A stretch of 64,000 nucleotides of DNA from contig ONCE01000010.1 in assembly GCA_900316245.1 (NCBI GenBank), positions 1-64,000 on the forward strand, given 5' to 3'. This DNA is from an uncultured Bacteroidales bacterium (GTDB lineage: Bacteria; Bacteroidota; Bacteroidia; Bacteroidales; UBA932). Below the pieces are notes generated by a model. The model worked only from the letters and a program-made list of their open reading frames with translations. It did no database searches and was not told where the DNA came from. Position numbers and translations under genes: made by a program. Within the stretch, counting starts at the first letter, position 1; every line of letters starts with the position of its first letter. Below are positions 33,558 to 53,726 of this stretch, one piece after another.

Positions 33558-34766
33558 ATGTATTCTCTTCGCGAACTGTATAAAATAGGAAAGGGTCCCT
33601 CCTCCTCACATACCATGGGCCCCAACAACGCCGCCCGCCTTTTCGGGGAGCGCCACACCGATGCCGCCCGCTTCGAGGTGACCCTCTACGGCTCCCTCGC
33701 CGCCACCGGCAAGGGCCATATGACGGACCTGGCCATCCTGGAAGTGCTGGAGCCCATCGGCCCGGTAAAAATCAACTGGGAGCCTTCCCGCTTCCTGGAC
33801 TATCACCCCAACGGTATGCTCTTCAAGGCATTCGGGGCCGATGACACCCTGCAGGAAGAATGGACCGTCTTCTCCGTGGGCGGCGGAGCCCTCTCCGAAG
33901 GCCCCGGCAAGGAAATGAGCAAGTCCGGAGAAGTATACGACCTCAACACCCTCAACGACATCATCGAATGGTGCGATGCCAACGGCCGAAGCATCTGGGA
34001 ATACGTAGAGATTTGCGAAGGAACCGAAATCTGGGACTATCTCCAGGAGATGTGGGAAGCGATGAAAGCCTCCGTGGTACGCGGCCTCAACAACGAAGGC
34101 CGTCTGCCCGGGCCCCTCAACCTTTCCCGCAAGGCCAGCAAGTACCACGTCAAGGCCCTGGGCTACCAACCCAACCTCCGCTCCCGCGGTCTGGTGTTTG
34201 CCTACGCCCTGGCCGTGAGCGAGGAGAACGCCTCCGGCGGCACCATCGTGACCGCCCCCACCTGCGGCTCCTCCGGCGTTATCCCGGGTGTCCTGTACCA
34301 CCTGGCTACCAGCCACGCCTTCTCGGATACCAAGATCCTCCGCGCCCTGGCTACGGCCGGCATCATTGGCAACGTGGTCAAGCAGAACGCCTCCATCTCC
34401 GGCGCCGAGGTAGGTTGCCAAGGTGAAGTGGGCGTAGCCTGCGCTATGGCTTCCGCCGCTGCCTGCCAGCTCTTCGGTGGCAGCCCCTACCAGGTAGAAT
34501 ACGCCGCCGAAATGGGCCTGGAGCACCACCTGGGTATGACCTGCGACCCTGTCTGCGGCCTGGTCCAGATCCCCTGCATCGAGCGCAACGCCTTCGCCGC
34601 CACCCGCGCCCTCGACTCCAACATCTACTCCACCTTCTCCGACGGCCGTCACCGCATCTCCTTCGACCACGTGGTAGAAGTGATGAAACAGACCGGCAAA
34701 GACCTCCCGTCCCTCTACAAGGAAACCTCCGCCGGCGGCCTCGCCCTGAAGTACTTACAAAAATAG
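33558..34766 (+). CDS. sdaA: L-serine ammonia-lyase (L-serine dehydratase), iron-sulfur type
   Basis: 402 residues, single-chain form: the N-terminal regulatory/beta domain (about 1-150) with ELYKIGKGPSSSHTMGP and the C-terminal alpha domain. The enzyme turns serine into pyruvate and ammonia with an oxygen-sensitive [4Fe-4S] cluster. Cluster cysteines are in TAPTCGSSG, EVGCQGEVGVACAM and CDPVCG. This is an anaerobe-type enzyme, in keeping with peptide use elsewhere in the window. The start at 33558 follows the -7 element. No clear terminator follows; a hairpin repeat at 34796-34845 lies 30 nt downstream. Confidence 0.95.
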   Translation: MYSLRELYKIGKGPSSSHTMGPNNAARLFGERHTDAARFEVTLYGSLAATGKGHMTDLAILEVLEPIGPVKINWEPSRFLDYHPNGMLFKAFGADDTLQEEWTVFSVGGGALSEGPGKEMSKSGEVYDLNTLNDIIEWCDANGRSIWEYVEICEGTEIWDYLQEMWEAMKASVVRGLNNEGRLPGPLNLSRKASKYHVKALGYQPNLRSRGLVFAYALAVSEENASGGTIVTAPTCGSSGVIPGVLYHLATSHAFSDTKILRALATAGIIGNVVKQNASISGAEVGCQGEVGVACAMASAAACQLFGGSPYQVEYAAEMGLEHHLGMTCDPVCGLVQIPCIERNAFAATRALDSNIYSTFSDGRHRISFDHVVEVMKQTGKDLPSLYKETSAGGLALKYLQK

Positions 34767-34795
34767 TTTCCTTCTTGTAGTTTAACCTTCCATCC

Positions 34796-34845
34796 TCCGG
34801 AAATTATTTTTCGGGACGGGACCCGAAAAACCAATTTCCTCCGGA
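34796..34845. repeat. Palindromic repeat family B, intergenic copy
   Basis: A hairpin with core TTTTTCGGGACGGGACCCGA and outer arms TCCGGAAATT and AATTTCCTCCGGA. The same core occurs twice inside ugd (52829-52973) with different arms. It lies 30 nt after the sdaA stop and could also act on that mRNA's 3' end. Confidence 0.8.
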
Positions 34846-34860
34846 TTTAGAATAGCTAGC

Positions 34861-34967
34861 CGTGAAATACAAGTAACGTTCTTTCAATACTTTACGTAAT
34901 TCCTCCTCCGTATTTTTCAGAGGAGGATTGTTGTATTTTGTTAATGCTTAATAACTTACATTTCACG
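34861..34967. other. Possible structured RNA or mini-element
   Basis: Outer complementary ends CGTGAAAT (34861-34868) and ATTTCACG (34960-34967) enclose an inner stem, CCTCCTC (about 34902-34908) with GAGGAGG (34920-34926). The 107-nt segment could fold as one branched RNA. No promoter or conserved family was recognised, so this is only a structural observation. Confidence 0.35.
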
Positions 34968-35516
34968 TCATAAAGGGCCGGCGGAAAGGGAGGGGAACGG
35001 AAGGCACCGCAGCCGGAGTATACGACATCCGGCTGCTACGGATCAAGCCCTGCACGGGCTCCATTAAAGGGCCCATGCAGGGCTTGCCCGTTGCCCACTT
35101 TCAGGCAAAGAAATGGAGAGGTTGGAGCCTGGCACTTAGCAGTTTAATAATCAATAGAATAGGCATATGGACTACCCTGATTAAGCAGTGGGTATATGTT
35201 GTTAACTATCACATGATCATTGACATAAGTGCCAGCGGTCCCGGACCCATCTCACGGTATTTTTCTTTCTGGGCCGTAGGCCCGGCACCCGACCCCCGAA
35301 TAAATATGTGCCAACCTTTGAACCATTGGGCATGTGACGAACGTTGCCATTGGCACCGCTGGTGGGGTGTAGGTTCTTTAAAAGGGCGCGGCGTTTGCCT
35401 GCTGGCAAACGAGGCGTAACCGCTGGCACAGGCTCTTGCACCGCACCCAAAGCTTTTCTGGGCGTTGCACTGTCTCTCGCGCTTCTTCTGATCCTTATAT
35501 CTCCACCGAACCATAA

Positions 35517-35620
35517 CCTGACAGCCGGCACTTTTGGCGTTTTTTGACGGTTGCGGCGTTGTGCATGACCTGACAGCCTGCACTTTTGGCCTTTTTTGCT
35601 GGCTGCGGCGTCAAGATTGA
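35517..35620. repeat. 52-bp tandem direct repeat
   Basis: Two imperfect copies begin CCTGACAGCC at 35517 and 35569. Shared segments are GCACTTTTGGC, TTTTTTG and GGCTGCGGCGT/GGTTGCGGCGT. Only two units and no spacers, so not a CRISPR array. Confidence 0.55.
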
Positions 35621-35728
35621 CGGTCAGGTGCGGTAGACGGGACAAAACGAGGCACGTTAGGGTCGAAAAACATGGGTTTTCGAGGTAAACGGGACAAGAA
35701 ATGGCACGTCTACCACGCCCGGGGTGTG

Positions 35729-35920
35729 AGATGGCCGATCGGGGTCGGCCATGACGACGATCGGGGTCGGCCATGACGGGGAGGTCAAGGCCCGGGATGA
35801 GGGTGCATTCCGAGCACCAGGAGGGTCGTTTTCGTGCTCGGGAAGAGGGAATACCAGGTCCCGAGCACCAGGAGGGGCAAATCCGTGCGCGGGAGATGGC
35901 CGATCGGGGCCGGGCATGAC
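35729..35920. repeat. Three GATCGGGG-type palindromes, part of a 143-bp repeat
   Basis: AGATGGCCGATCGGGGTCGG starts at 35729, a partial copy follows at 35758, and a variant starts at 35894. Each can fold through GGCCGA/TCGGCC arms. The sequence after the second and third copies (AGG-CCCGGGATGAGG) is also repeated, so a unit of about 143 bp was duplicated. The same palindrome type is at 38505-38530 and, in coding sequence, at 48805-48832. Confidence 0.55.
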
Positions 35921-36004
35921 GACAAGGGTCAGAGCCCGGGATGAGGTGGGAACCCCATACCCCTCCCATCAGTTTTACCCCGGTCCCTCGGAAGGGTGCA
36001 CAAC

Positions 36005-52337: not shown

Positions 52338-53726
52338 ATGAAAATTGCCATTGCAGGAACCGGATACGTAGGAATGAGCCTGGCCACGCTCCTAGCCCAA
52401 AAGAGCGAGGTAGTAGCCGTAGACGTTGTCCCGGAAAAGGTAGCCAAAATCAACCGCAGGGAATCCCCCATAGCAGACGAGTACATAGAACAGTTTCTCC
52501 GGGAGAAGCCGCTCAACCTCACCGCTACCCTGGACGCAAAGGAGGCCTACAAAGGGGCCGATTATGTAATCATAGCCACCCCTACCAACTATGACCCTCA
52601 GCAGAATTTCTTCGACACGTCCCACGTGGAAGAGGTGGTGAAACTGGTGCTGGAGGTGAATCCGAATGCCGTGATGGTGATCAAGAGCACGGTGCCGGTA
52701 GGGTTTACCCGTTCCCTGGAGGAGAAGTACCCCACTGGCAAGTTCCTCTTCTCCCCTGAGTTCCTGCGTGAAAGTAAGGCGCTATACGATAATTTATATC
52801 CGTCCCGTATAATTGTTGGATTCAACCGTTCTGCGGAAAATTATTTTTCGGGACGGTGCCCGAAAAACCAATTTTCCGCCGAACTACAAACCGAAAACCA
52901 AGTTGCCAATTCTCTTCCGGCAGAAGAAAATTATTTTTCGGGACGGGACCCGAAAAACCAATTTTCCTCTGCCTCCACAAAGCCAGCGCTCATAGAGAAA
53001 GCTTCGGAGTTTGCCAATTTATTGAAGGAATGCTCTTTGAAGCCGGAGGTGCCGGTGCTGCTGATGGAAACTACGGAGGCGGAGGCGGTGAAGTTGTTTG
53101 CCAATACGTACCTGGCGCTGCGCGTCAGTTATTTCAATGAACTGGACACGTATGCGGAGATGAAGGGCCTGGATACAAAGGCCATCATCGAGGGCGTGTG
53201 CCTGGATCCGCGCATAGGAACGCATTACAACAATCCTTCCTTCGGATACGGCGGCTACTGCCTTCCCAAGGACACCAAGCAGCTGCTGGCCAACTACAAC
53301 GACGTACCTGAGAACCTCATCCAGGCCATCGTGGAATCCAACCGCACGCGCAAGGACTACATAGCAGACCGGGTACTTTCCAAGGCCGGTTACTACAGTT
53401 ATTACGGCCCCAACAACACCTACGCAACGGCGCAGGAGAAGGACGTCACCGTGGGCGTGTACCGCCTCACTATGAAGTCCGGATCGGACAACTTCCGCCA
53501 GAGCGCCATCCAGGGCATTATGAAGCGCATCAAGGCCAAGGGAGCGCACGTGATTGTGTACGAGCCCACCCTGGAAGACGGCACCACGTTCTTCGGCTCG
53601 CCGGTGGTCAACAACCTGGAGGCCTTCAAGGCCCAGTCCAACGCCATCATAGCCAACCGCTTTGACGAGCAGCTGGAAGACGTAAAAGAAAAAGTTTACA
53701 CCCGAGATATCTTTAAAAGAGACTAG
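52338..53726 (+). CDS. ugd: UDP-glucose/nucleotide-sugar 6-dehydrogenase with two in-frame palindromic repeats
   Basis: 462 residues, longer than the usual 385-400. It oxidises UDP-glucose to UDP-glucuronate with two NAD+. The Rossmann GTGYVG (8-13) opens the protein; [26 protein letters not shown] and the catalytic [11 protein letters not shown] with Cys308 are intact. Between IIVGF and [10 protein letters not shown] about 50 residues (roughly 164-212) consist of two copies of NYFSGR-PKNQFS, each coded by a family B palindrome (52829-52883 and 52919-52973). The N-terminal NAD domain and the catalytic domain are in register on both sides, so the protein is probably functional with a surface loop. 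The ATG at 52338 follows a -7 element. Confidence 0.9.
52829..52883. repeat. Palindromic repeat family B, first copy in ugd
   Basis: Core TTTTTCGGGACGGTGCCCGA; outer arms TTCTGCGGAAAATT and AATTTTCCGCCGAA pair with one G-T wobble. In frame. Confidence 0.85.
52919..52973. repeat. Palindromic repeat family B, second copy in ugd
   Basis: Same core (TTTTTCGGGACGGGACCCGA); outer arms GGCAGAAGAAAATT and AATTTTCCTCTGCC pair except for one A-C. 90 nt after the first copy, in the same frame. Confidence 0.85.

Follow-up and report, generated by a model that had tools for sequence, protein, structure and literature searches.

How does a gene come to hold two copies of one hairpin in the middle of its coding region and keep its reading frame? 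The question is raised by ugd, a gene in the window analysed here, a 64,000-nucleotide stretch of a contig from an uncultured Bacteroidales bacterium (table 1). A 42-nt repeat, 95% identical between 52836–52877 and 52926–52967 and thus spaced by 90 nt, lies within the two hairpins. The frame from 52338 to 53726 contains no stop through either of them; the two NYFS motifs of the protein begin at residues 168 and 198 (Met1 counted), and Cys308 of the GYGGYC motif is retained. A preliminary description of this DNA had reported two 55-nt copies, 90 nt apart and in frame, in a protein that had gained about 50 residues and kept Cys308. Each of these statements is borne out, the gain being about 55 residues relative to the Klebsiella enzyme, and the presence of paired in-frame hairpins in ugd is confirmed. 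The open frame suggests that the hairpin codons are translated. As for the number of copies in the window, the two in ugd stand; a third, intergenic, with its core at 34802–34837, had been missed.

Table 1. Features of the window discussed in the text (positions count from the first nucleotide of the window).
Feature	Position	Strand	Description
ugd	52338..53726	+	UDP-glucose 6-dehydrogenase, insertion-bearing, 462 aa; match to 3phl/3pid
Hairpin copy 1	52829..52883	+	55 nt; core 52839-52874, centre CGGGACGGTGCCCG; in-frame 12-residue peptide
Hairpin copy 2	52919..52973	+	55 nt; core 52929-52964, centre CGGGACGGGACCCG; in-frame 12-residue peptide
Extra segment of Ugd	52833..52997	+	~55 residues more than Klebsiella Ugd (residues 165-219 of P0001, no Met1)
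Third copy	34790..34847	+	Intergenic; outer arms CCATCCTCCGG...CCTCCGGATT; core 34802-34837
108-nt repeat	34860..34967	.	Palindrome-ended, CCGTGAAAT...ATTTCACG, with central hairpin; like one preceding a RAYT gene (L193) at another place in the genome
Repeat-rich stretch	34755..36001	.	1247 nt, holds the third copy; near relative G381 has 21 nt there

Is the extra segment an old part of the enzyme? In a phmmer comparison with Klebsiella Ugd (3phl, 3pid) the match breaks at query residues 164/220, chain residues 200/202. A match to Ugd at the cut-off was obtained in 38 of 81 genomes of the same genus, perhaps Cryptobacteroides (the window's own counted); 33 of these 38 matches came in pieces, split around the insertion place. 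Thirty same-genus loci could be aligned, and their loops were assigned to classes by eye. Sixteen have a loop of 11–15 aa at the insertion place, and these, with the hairpin element in only two loci (the window and G334), are the relatives without insertion that the preliminary description had named as a check. Four have a loop of 19–30 aa with no recognisable repeat. The remaining eight carry some other insert: ATGCCCGATCAGGTCGGG-type palindromes in three, repeats of the GTCATTCTGAGCGAAGCGAAGAATC kind in three, GTCCCTGAGC repeats in one, and in one more an insert whose type was not placed. Among element-bearing metagenome-assembled genomes (MAGs), 13 of 37 gave a Ugd match at the cut-off; of the 11 loops readable, from 10 of these 13, one contains the hairpin element (G392) and about five, judged by eye, contain other palindromic repeats. 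The Ugd loop is a landing place common to several kinds of repeat, which the preliminary description had not noticed.

In one such loop, that of G363 (L202), a different palindrome, read as VQGSPDQKKWSAESLDAP, is followed by an element-like 3′ junction, CTCCACAACGCC. That arrangement points to a broader class whose hairpins can be exchanged. The conserved 3′ junction was found at 31 places, 22 with the core and nine without; three of the nine have a strong hairpin, which is suggestive only.

That the segment is an assembly artefact, or else an old conserved piece of Ugd, we regard as scarcely credible. The carriers that have titles are, it is true, MAGs or uncultured isolates. Assembly error is nevertheless rejected because MAGs of many different projects have the same in-frame pattern, and a conserved native segment is rejected since most aligned orthologues, and the Klebsiella enzyme, are without the element.

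Where else does the element occur? Within the window, the 20-nt core at up to three mismatches has three matches, against none in 100 dinucleotide shuffles. A search of the whole genome for AATTATTTTTC-N-GAAAAACCAATTT found 22 copies, and the reversed control found none, so that the second proposed check, many other copies in the genome, also came out in favour; the pattern permitted a gap of 4–34 nt, and the observed gap was 12 nt in all 22. Fourteen copies lie within seven open reading frames (ORFs), all in the NYFS sense frame, and one (L021) is antisense to a Beta-lactamase family fold gene and in frame with it. The other seven are intergenic, scattered over the genome, with nearly identical flanking arms. 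The surroundings of the window's intergenic copy (34755–36001) are densely packed with palindromes and tandem repeats of several kinds, among them GCACCAGGA...GTGCTCGG units and a repeat of the GGTAGACGGGACA type that resembles one beside another RAYT gene (L192). The 108-nt repeat of table 1 stands directly 3′ of the element in four of eight intergenic loci inspected, the window's among them.

Beyond this genome the distribution is patchy. Of the family, 299 genomes were sampled, and only two, G269 and the window's own, have the core at no more than one mismatch. With each GTDB species represented by a single genome, a scan found at least 110 stretches in at least 38 assemblies (the 38 counted by hand). 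Among the matches listed, the titles of these 38 name Bacteroidales or Bacteroidia, bar one short Clostridia contig; a ruminant or ruminant stomach is named in 11 titles, and 17 bear RUG or RUI codes, which we take to denote rumen genomes. The Clostridia-titled contig (L094, 3.4 kb) may be mis-binned. When carrier genomes were searched again, copies were found in 40 of 40 and the reversed control in none; two of the 40, G269 and G391, are apparently a single assembly. Carriage by phages was considered and rejected: phages gave no match at the search sensitivity used, and the exact pattern was not found in viral contigs. The element family is present in uncultured, mostly rumen Bacteroidales. 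The suggestion that Bacteroidales have protein-coding palindromic elements of their own is supported by these copies, those within genes being mostly in frame. The titles and abstract openings covered by our literature search, to which subscription papers are mostly external, hold no account of this element.

What defines the unit, its sequence or its shape? To this we answer with the arms of 50 distinct in-gene copies, a feature outside the preliminary description. Shuffling lowered the share of paired cells from 92.2% to 80.0% (sd 0.6) and the number of double changes from 157 to 59.0 (sd 7.3); the covariation score fell from 0.306 to 0.107. In controls with the register slid, pairing was never above 61.9% and double changes never exceeded 31. 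There are 11 one-sided changes, and of the 1200 arm cells 94 do not pair. The count of further pair types does not go beyond the shuffles, 80 of 500 of which reach it. Exchange of flanks between copies gave the same picture: arm pairing was 7.77 of 9 in 52 in-gene copies against 5.66 (sd 0.15) when swapped, and 6.41 of 9 in 78 other copies against 4.56 (sd 0.12). An outer stem, defined as at least 7 bp lying 17–21 nt ahead of the core, occurs in 17 of the 52 and 33 of the 78; once the flanks are swapped, the figures are 3.1 and 3.7.

Because the search patterns fix part of the core, the core itself was examined by a mismatch-tolerant search. Among the matches listed from the carrier genomes, 59 of 61 two-mismatch copies differ by one compensated base pair (of five kinds) and two copies have a single mismatch, both counts being made by eye with the G391 rows left out as repeats of G269; the bulge is touched in one of the 63 mismatched rows. 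These rows are not independent events, since many come from G382 and G390 and share ancestry. At the fetched loci, 12 of 14 two-mismatch copies differ by one compensated pair, and three have one mismatch, in one case in the bulge. The A/CC bulge is mostly kept across copies. Structure, more than sequence, sets the unit. As to which strand folds, the balance of A-C and G-T pairs proved ambiguous, and a reading based on it was dropped.

Could the hairpins be kept for work at the level of mRNA (stability, pausing or translation), with the peptide a by-product? Arm covariation is strong within coding sequence, and the residues that the arms encode are not conserved, as such a role would have it. 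On the other hand, G-U intermediates are rare: 11 one-sided changes stand against the 157 two-sided ones, and G-T accounts for 11 of 63 non-Watson–Crick cells (in-gene helix, pooled), close to the 2 in 12 to be expected were all equal. The hosts, moreover, are unrelated genes, and most sampled relatives are without the element. We consider an mRNA-level role distinctly improbable. A bolder idea, which we put forward tentatively and think rather unlikely, is that this is a class of mobile hairpin set by shape, not sequence, which keeps its bulge while the two arms change jointly, in a single step, as the unit moves or is copied. If that is true, such a hairpin could change its arms freely and yet stay recognised, and it would seed in-frame protein segments at permissive loops that unrelated palindromes also enter.

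In which frame do genes read the element? We counted a copy as strictly in-gene if at least 40 codons with a positive codon score lay on both sides. The score, for which 346 ORFs from the fetched loci served as the training set, replaced a first classifier, which was noisy because the linkers around inserts lower the score. By script 53 of 139 copies qualified, and 52 once L003 was removed, a copy in frame f2 that sits between Pfam-recognised M28 peptidase and ABC transporter genes. The NYFS frame, f0, accounts for 41 of the 52, the antisense frame f4 for eight and f2 for three; the rest have none. Frames f0 and f4 are one codon phase of the palindrome read from opposite strands, so that two equivalent frames account for 49 of the 52. 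In all three f2 copies f0 is closed by a TGA just ahead of the core. Stops inside the core do not explain the bias, since five of the six frames are open in the window's core.

The hosts are varied, with housekeeping genes among them. Their families were taken from Pfam because clustering by blastp chained 32 entries, apparently through the shared inserts; the set comprises 60 proteins, three of which are neighbours of intergenic copies. It includes MutY, Ugd, CitC-CitG, CitX, subunits a and gamma of ATP synthase, the RNase P protein, RibF, IGPS, ketoacyl synthase, HI0933-like, NTP-transferase-HAD and DNA alkylation repair proteins, and others; the L087 host protein has no Pfam family, and the CitX gene of L016 is Pfam-recognised yet falls below the score cut. 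Six MAGs have a copy at one common place in MutY, with differing arms, and two of the six have an additional copy. In ATP synthase subunit a of five MAGs (L038, L058, L074, L080, L139) the element lies 17–21 codons past the start, and these five near-start copies were left out of the strict set. They stand behind an apparent signal peptide. One CitC-CitG ORF (L101, 2549–4600, reverse strand) contains two copies, one sense (f0) and one antisense (f4).

Does the peptide itself have a function, the frame bias reflecting selection on the protein? The concentration of strict copies in two equivalent frames and the recurrence of hosts such as MutY, Ugd, ATP synthase subunit a and CitC-CitG are what recruitment would produce. 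Yet the NYFS and KNQF codons need no cause at the level of the peptide, because the search pattern fixes most of them and intergenic copies have them too. The inner residues vary with the stem (GRDP, QDFA, EGFP, SCSC), and in relatives other repeats occupy the Ugd loop. A recruited peptide seems to us very unlikely.

If the element moves, what might move it? Matches to Y1 transposase (RAYT) were found in 12 of 12 carriers searched, 10 of them above the curated cut-off, and in 46 of 61 genomes of the same genus, 38 above the cut-off, the element status of the 61 being partly checked. The presence of RAYT does not clearly separate carriers. Of 30 RAYT loci, two have the element 5′ of the RAYT gene, and these are an orthologous pair (L228/L229); at a third (L244) a copy lies inside the neighbouring SpoU-family gene, and the locus DNA examined at the other 27 contains no copy. 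The three RAYT genes of the window's own genome have other repeats alongside, as judged by eye.

Two further features of RAYT loci may be recorded. In L228 (890–1110) and in L229 (reverse strand) a tandem 15-nt unit of the GGCTTGCCATCCCC type lies just 5′ of the element, upstream of RAYT; it resembles the element's own outer arm plus linker. The RAYT reading frame of L194 (1330–2271) encodes a protein with NYFSGKQL, and the DNA there resembles the left half of the element; this may be chance or a remnant.

Is transposition required at all? The near relative G381 is 81–90% identical to the window's genome over the stretches compared. Its fabF-like gene is shorter by a net 264 nt (88 codons) and its HI0933-like gene by a net 120 nt (40 codons), the latter retaining arm-like sequence with the core absent. 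The length differences between near relatives are whole codons; the comparison is unpolarised. At three occupied/empty pairs no target-site duplication was seen by eye. Inheritance, or replacement in place, may lie behind part of the pattern, as at the MutY site common to six MAGs.

Taken further, this would mean that the copies are mostly vertical, that slippage, gene conversion between copies or hairpin-templated (quasipalindrome) repair reshapes them where they stand, and that true transposition contributes little. Such a reading is in keeping with the tandem and incomplete copies seen in the fabF-like and NTP-transferase-HAD genes, the 15-nt tandem array beside a RAYT copy, the differing arms at one MutY site and the small number of one-mismatch copies. 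Against it stand the seven dispersed intergenic copies with their nearly identical arms and the scarcity of the core in the family sample. Hairpin-templated repair, furthermore, should erase the bulge too, which is touched so rarely among the matches listed. We judge this reading unlikely, though worth keeping in mind.

The account that we favour, and hold to be probable, is that of a non-autonomous palindromic selfish element, akin in behaviour to the Rickettsia palindromic elements (RPEs) and to intragenic REPs, mobilised in trans and surviving in protein loops. Recognition of the unit would take place on single-stranded DNA folded into a bulged hairpin. We infer that a transposase acting in trans moves it, most likely one of the RAYT-type HUH (Y1) kind. 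Insertions would persist mainly in protein loops, and the surviving codon phase, sense or antisense, would be the one in which the hairpin contains no stop and encodes a mostly polar peptide. Through survival in loops and in a stop-free phase, the gene would gain a loop and still work.

The original finding is right, and it is larger than first described: the protein-coding palindromes form a family that is defined by structure and has a sequence, hosts and a covariation signature of its own. The best-known palindromes of this protein-coding sort are those of Rickettsia, and their way of moving there is unsettled. A comparable system in dozens of gut bacterial genomes, with occupied/empty pairs, recurring hosts and a clear structural signature, makes both the movement of the element and the survival of the gene testable in Bacteroidales. 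When repeats of several kinds enter one enzyme loop, new protein segments have a direct way to arise.

How does the element compare with known systems? The outer stem (17 of 52 and 33 of 78 copies) resembles the terminal inverted repeats of a MITE, set against which is the lack of a target-site duplication by eye at the three pairs. With RAYT-mobilised REPs (REPtrons) it shares a conserved irregularity in the hairpin, the occurrence of RAYT matches in every carrier searched and, at one orthologous RAYT pair, a position on the 5′ side; it differs in that 27 of 30 RAYT loci are without a copy in the DNA examined and that mobilisation here is a deduction. Intragenic REPs tagged with GTAG or CGTC lie within coding regions in several phyla, the CGTC kind also in Bacteroidetes (PMC3733652), and repeats that by their look are of CGTC type occupy the same Ugd loop in relatives. 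By contrast, neither the flank consensus nor our 50-row alignment shows a constant GTAG or CGTC tag where the stem begins, CGTC being found at the stem foot in some rows only, such as the GTCAGA-armed ones; the bulged stem is longer, and an outer stem is present in roughly a third of the copies or more. RPEs are, according to a review, short dispersed palindromes, many of them in frame in unrelated genes, to which they add a characteristic peptide (PMC10969869). The present element belongs to another phylum, its inner hairpin is 55 nt as against about 150 bp for RPEs, and its arms covary, the unit being set by structure. Like the RPEs, it is dispersed and palindromic (22 copies with 12-nt centres in this genome) and lies in frame in varied conserved protein genes. 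The Rickettsia-like behaviour first proposed for the two ugd hairpins therefore holds, as a likeness of behaviour, independent of sequence comparison or any claim of descent.
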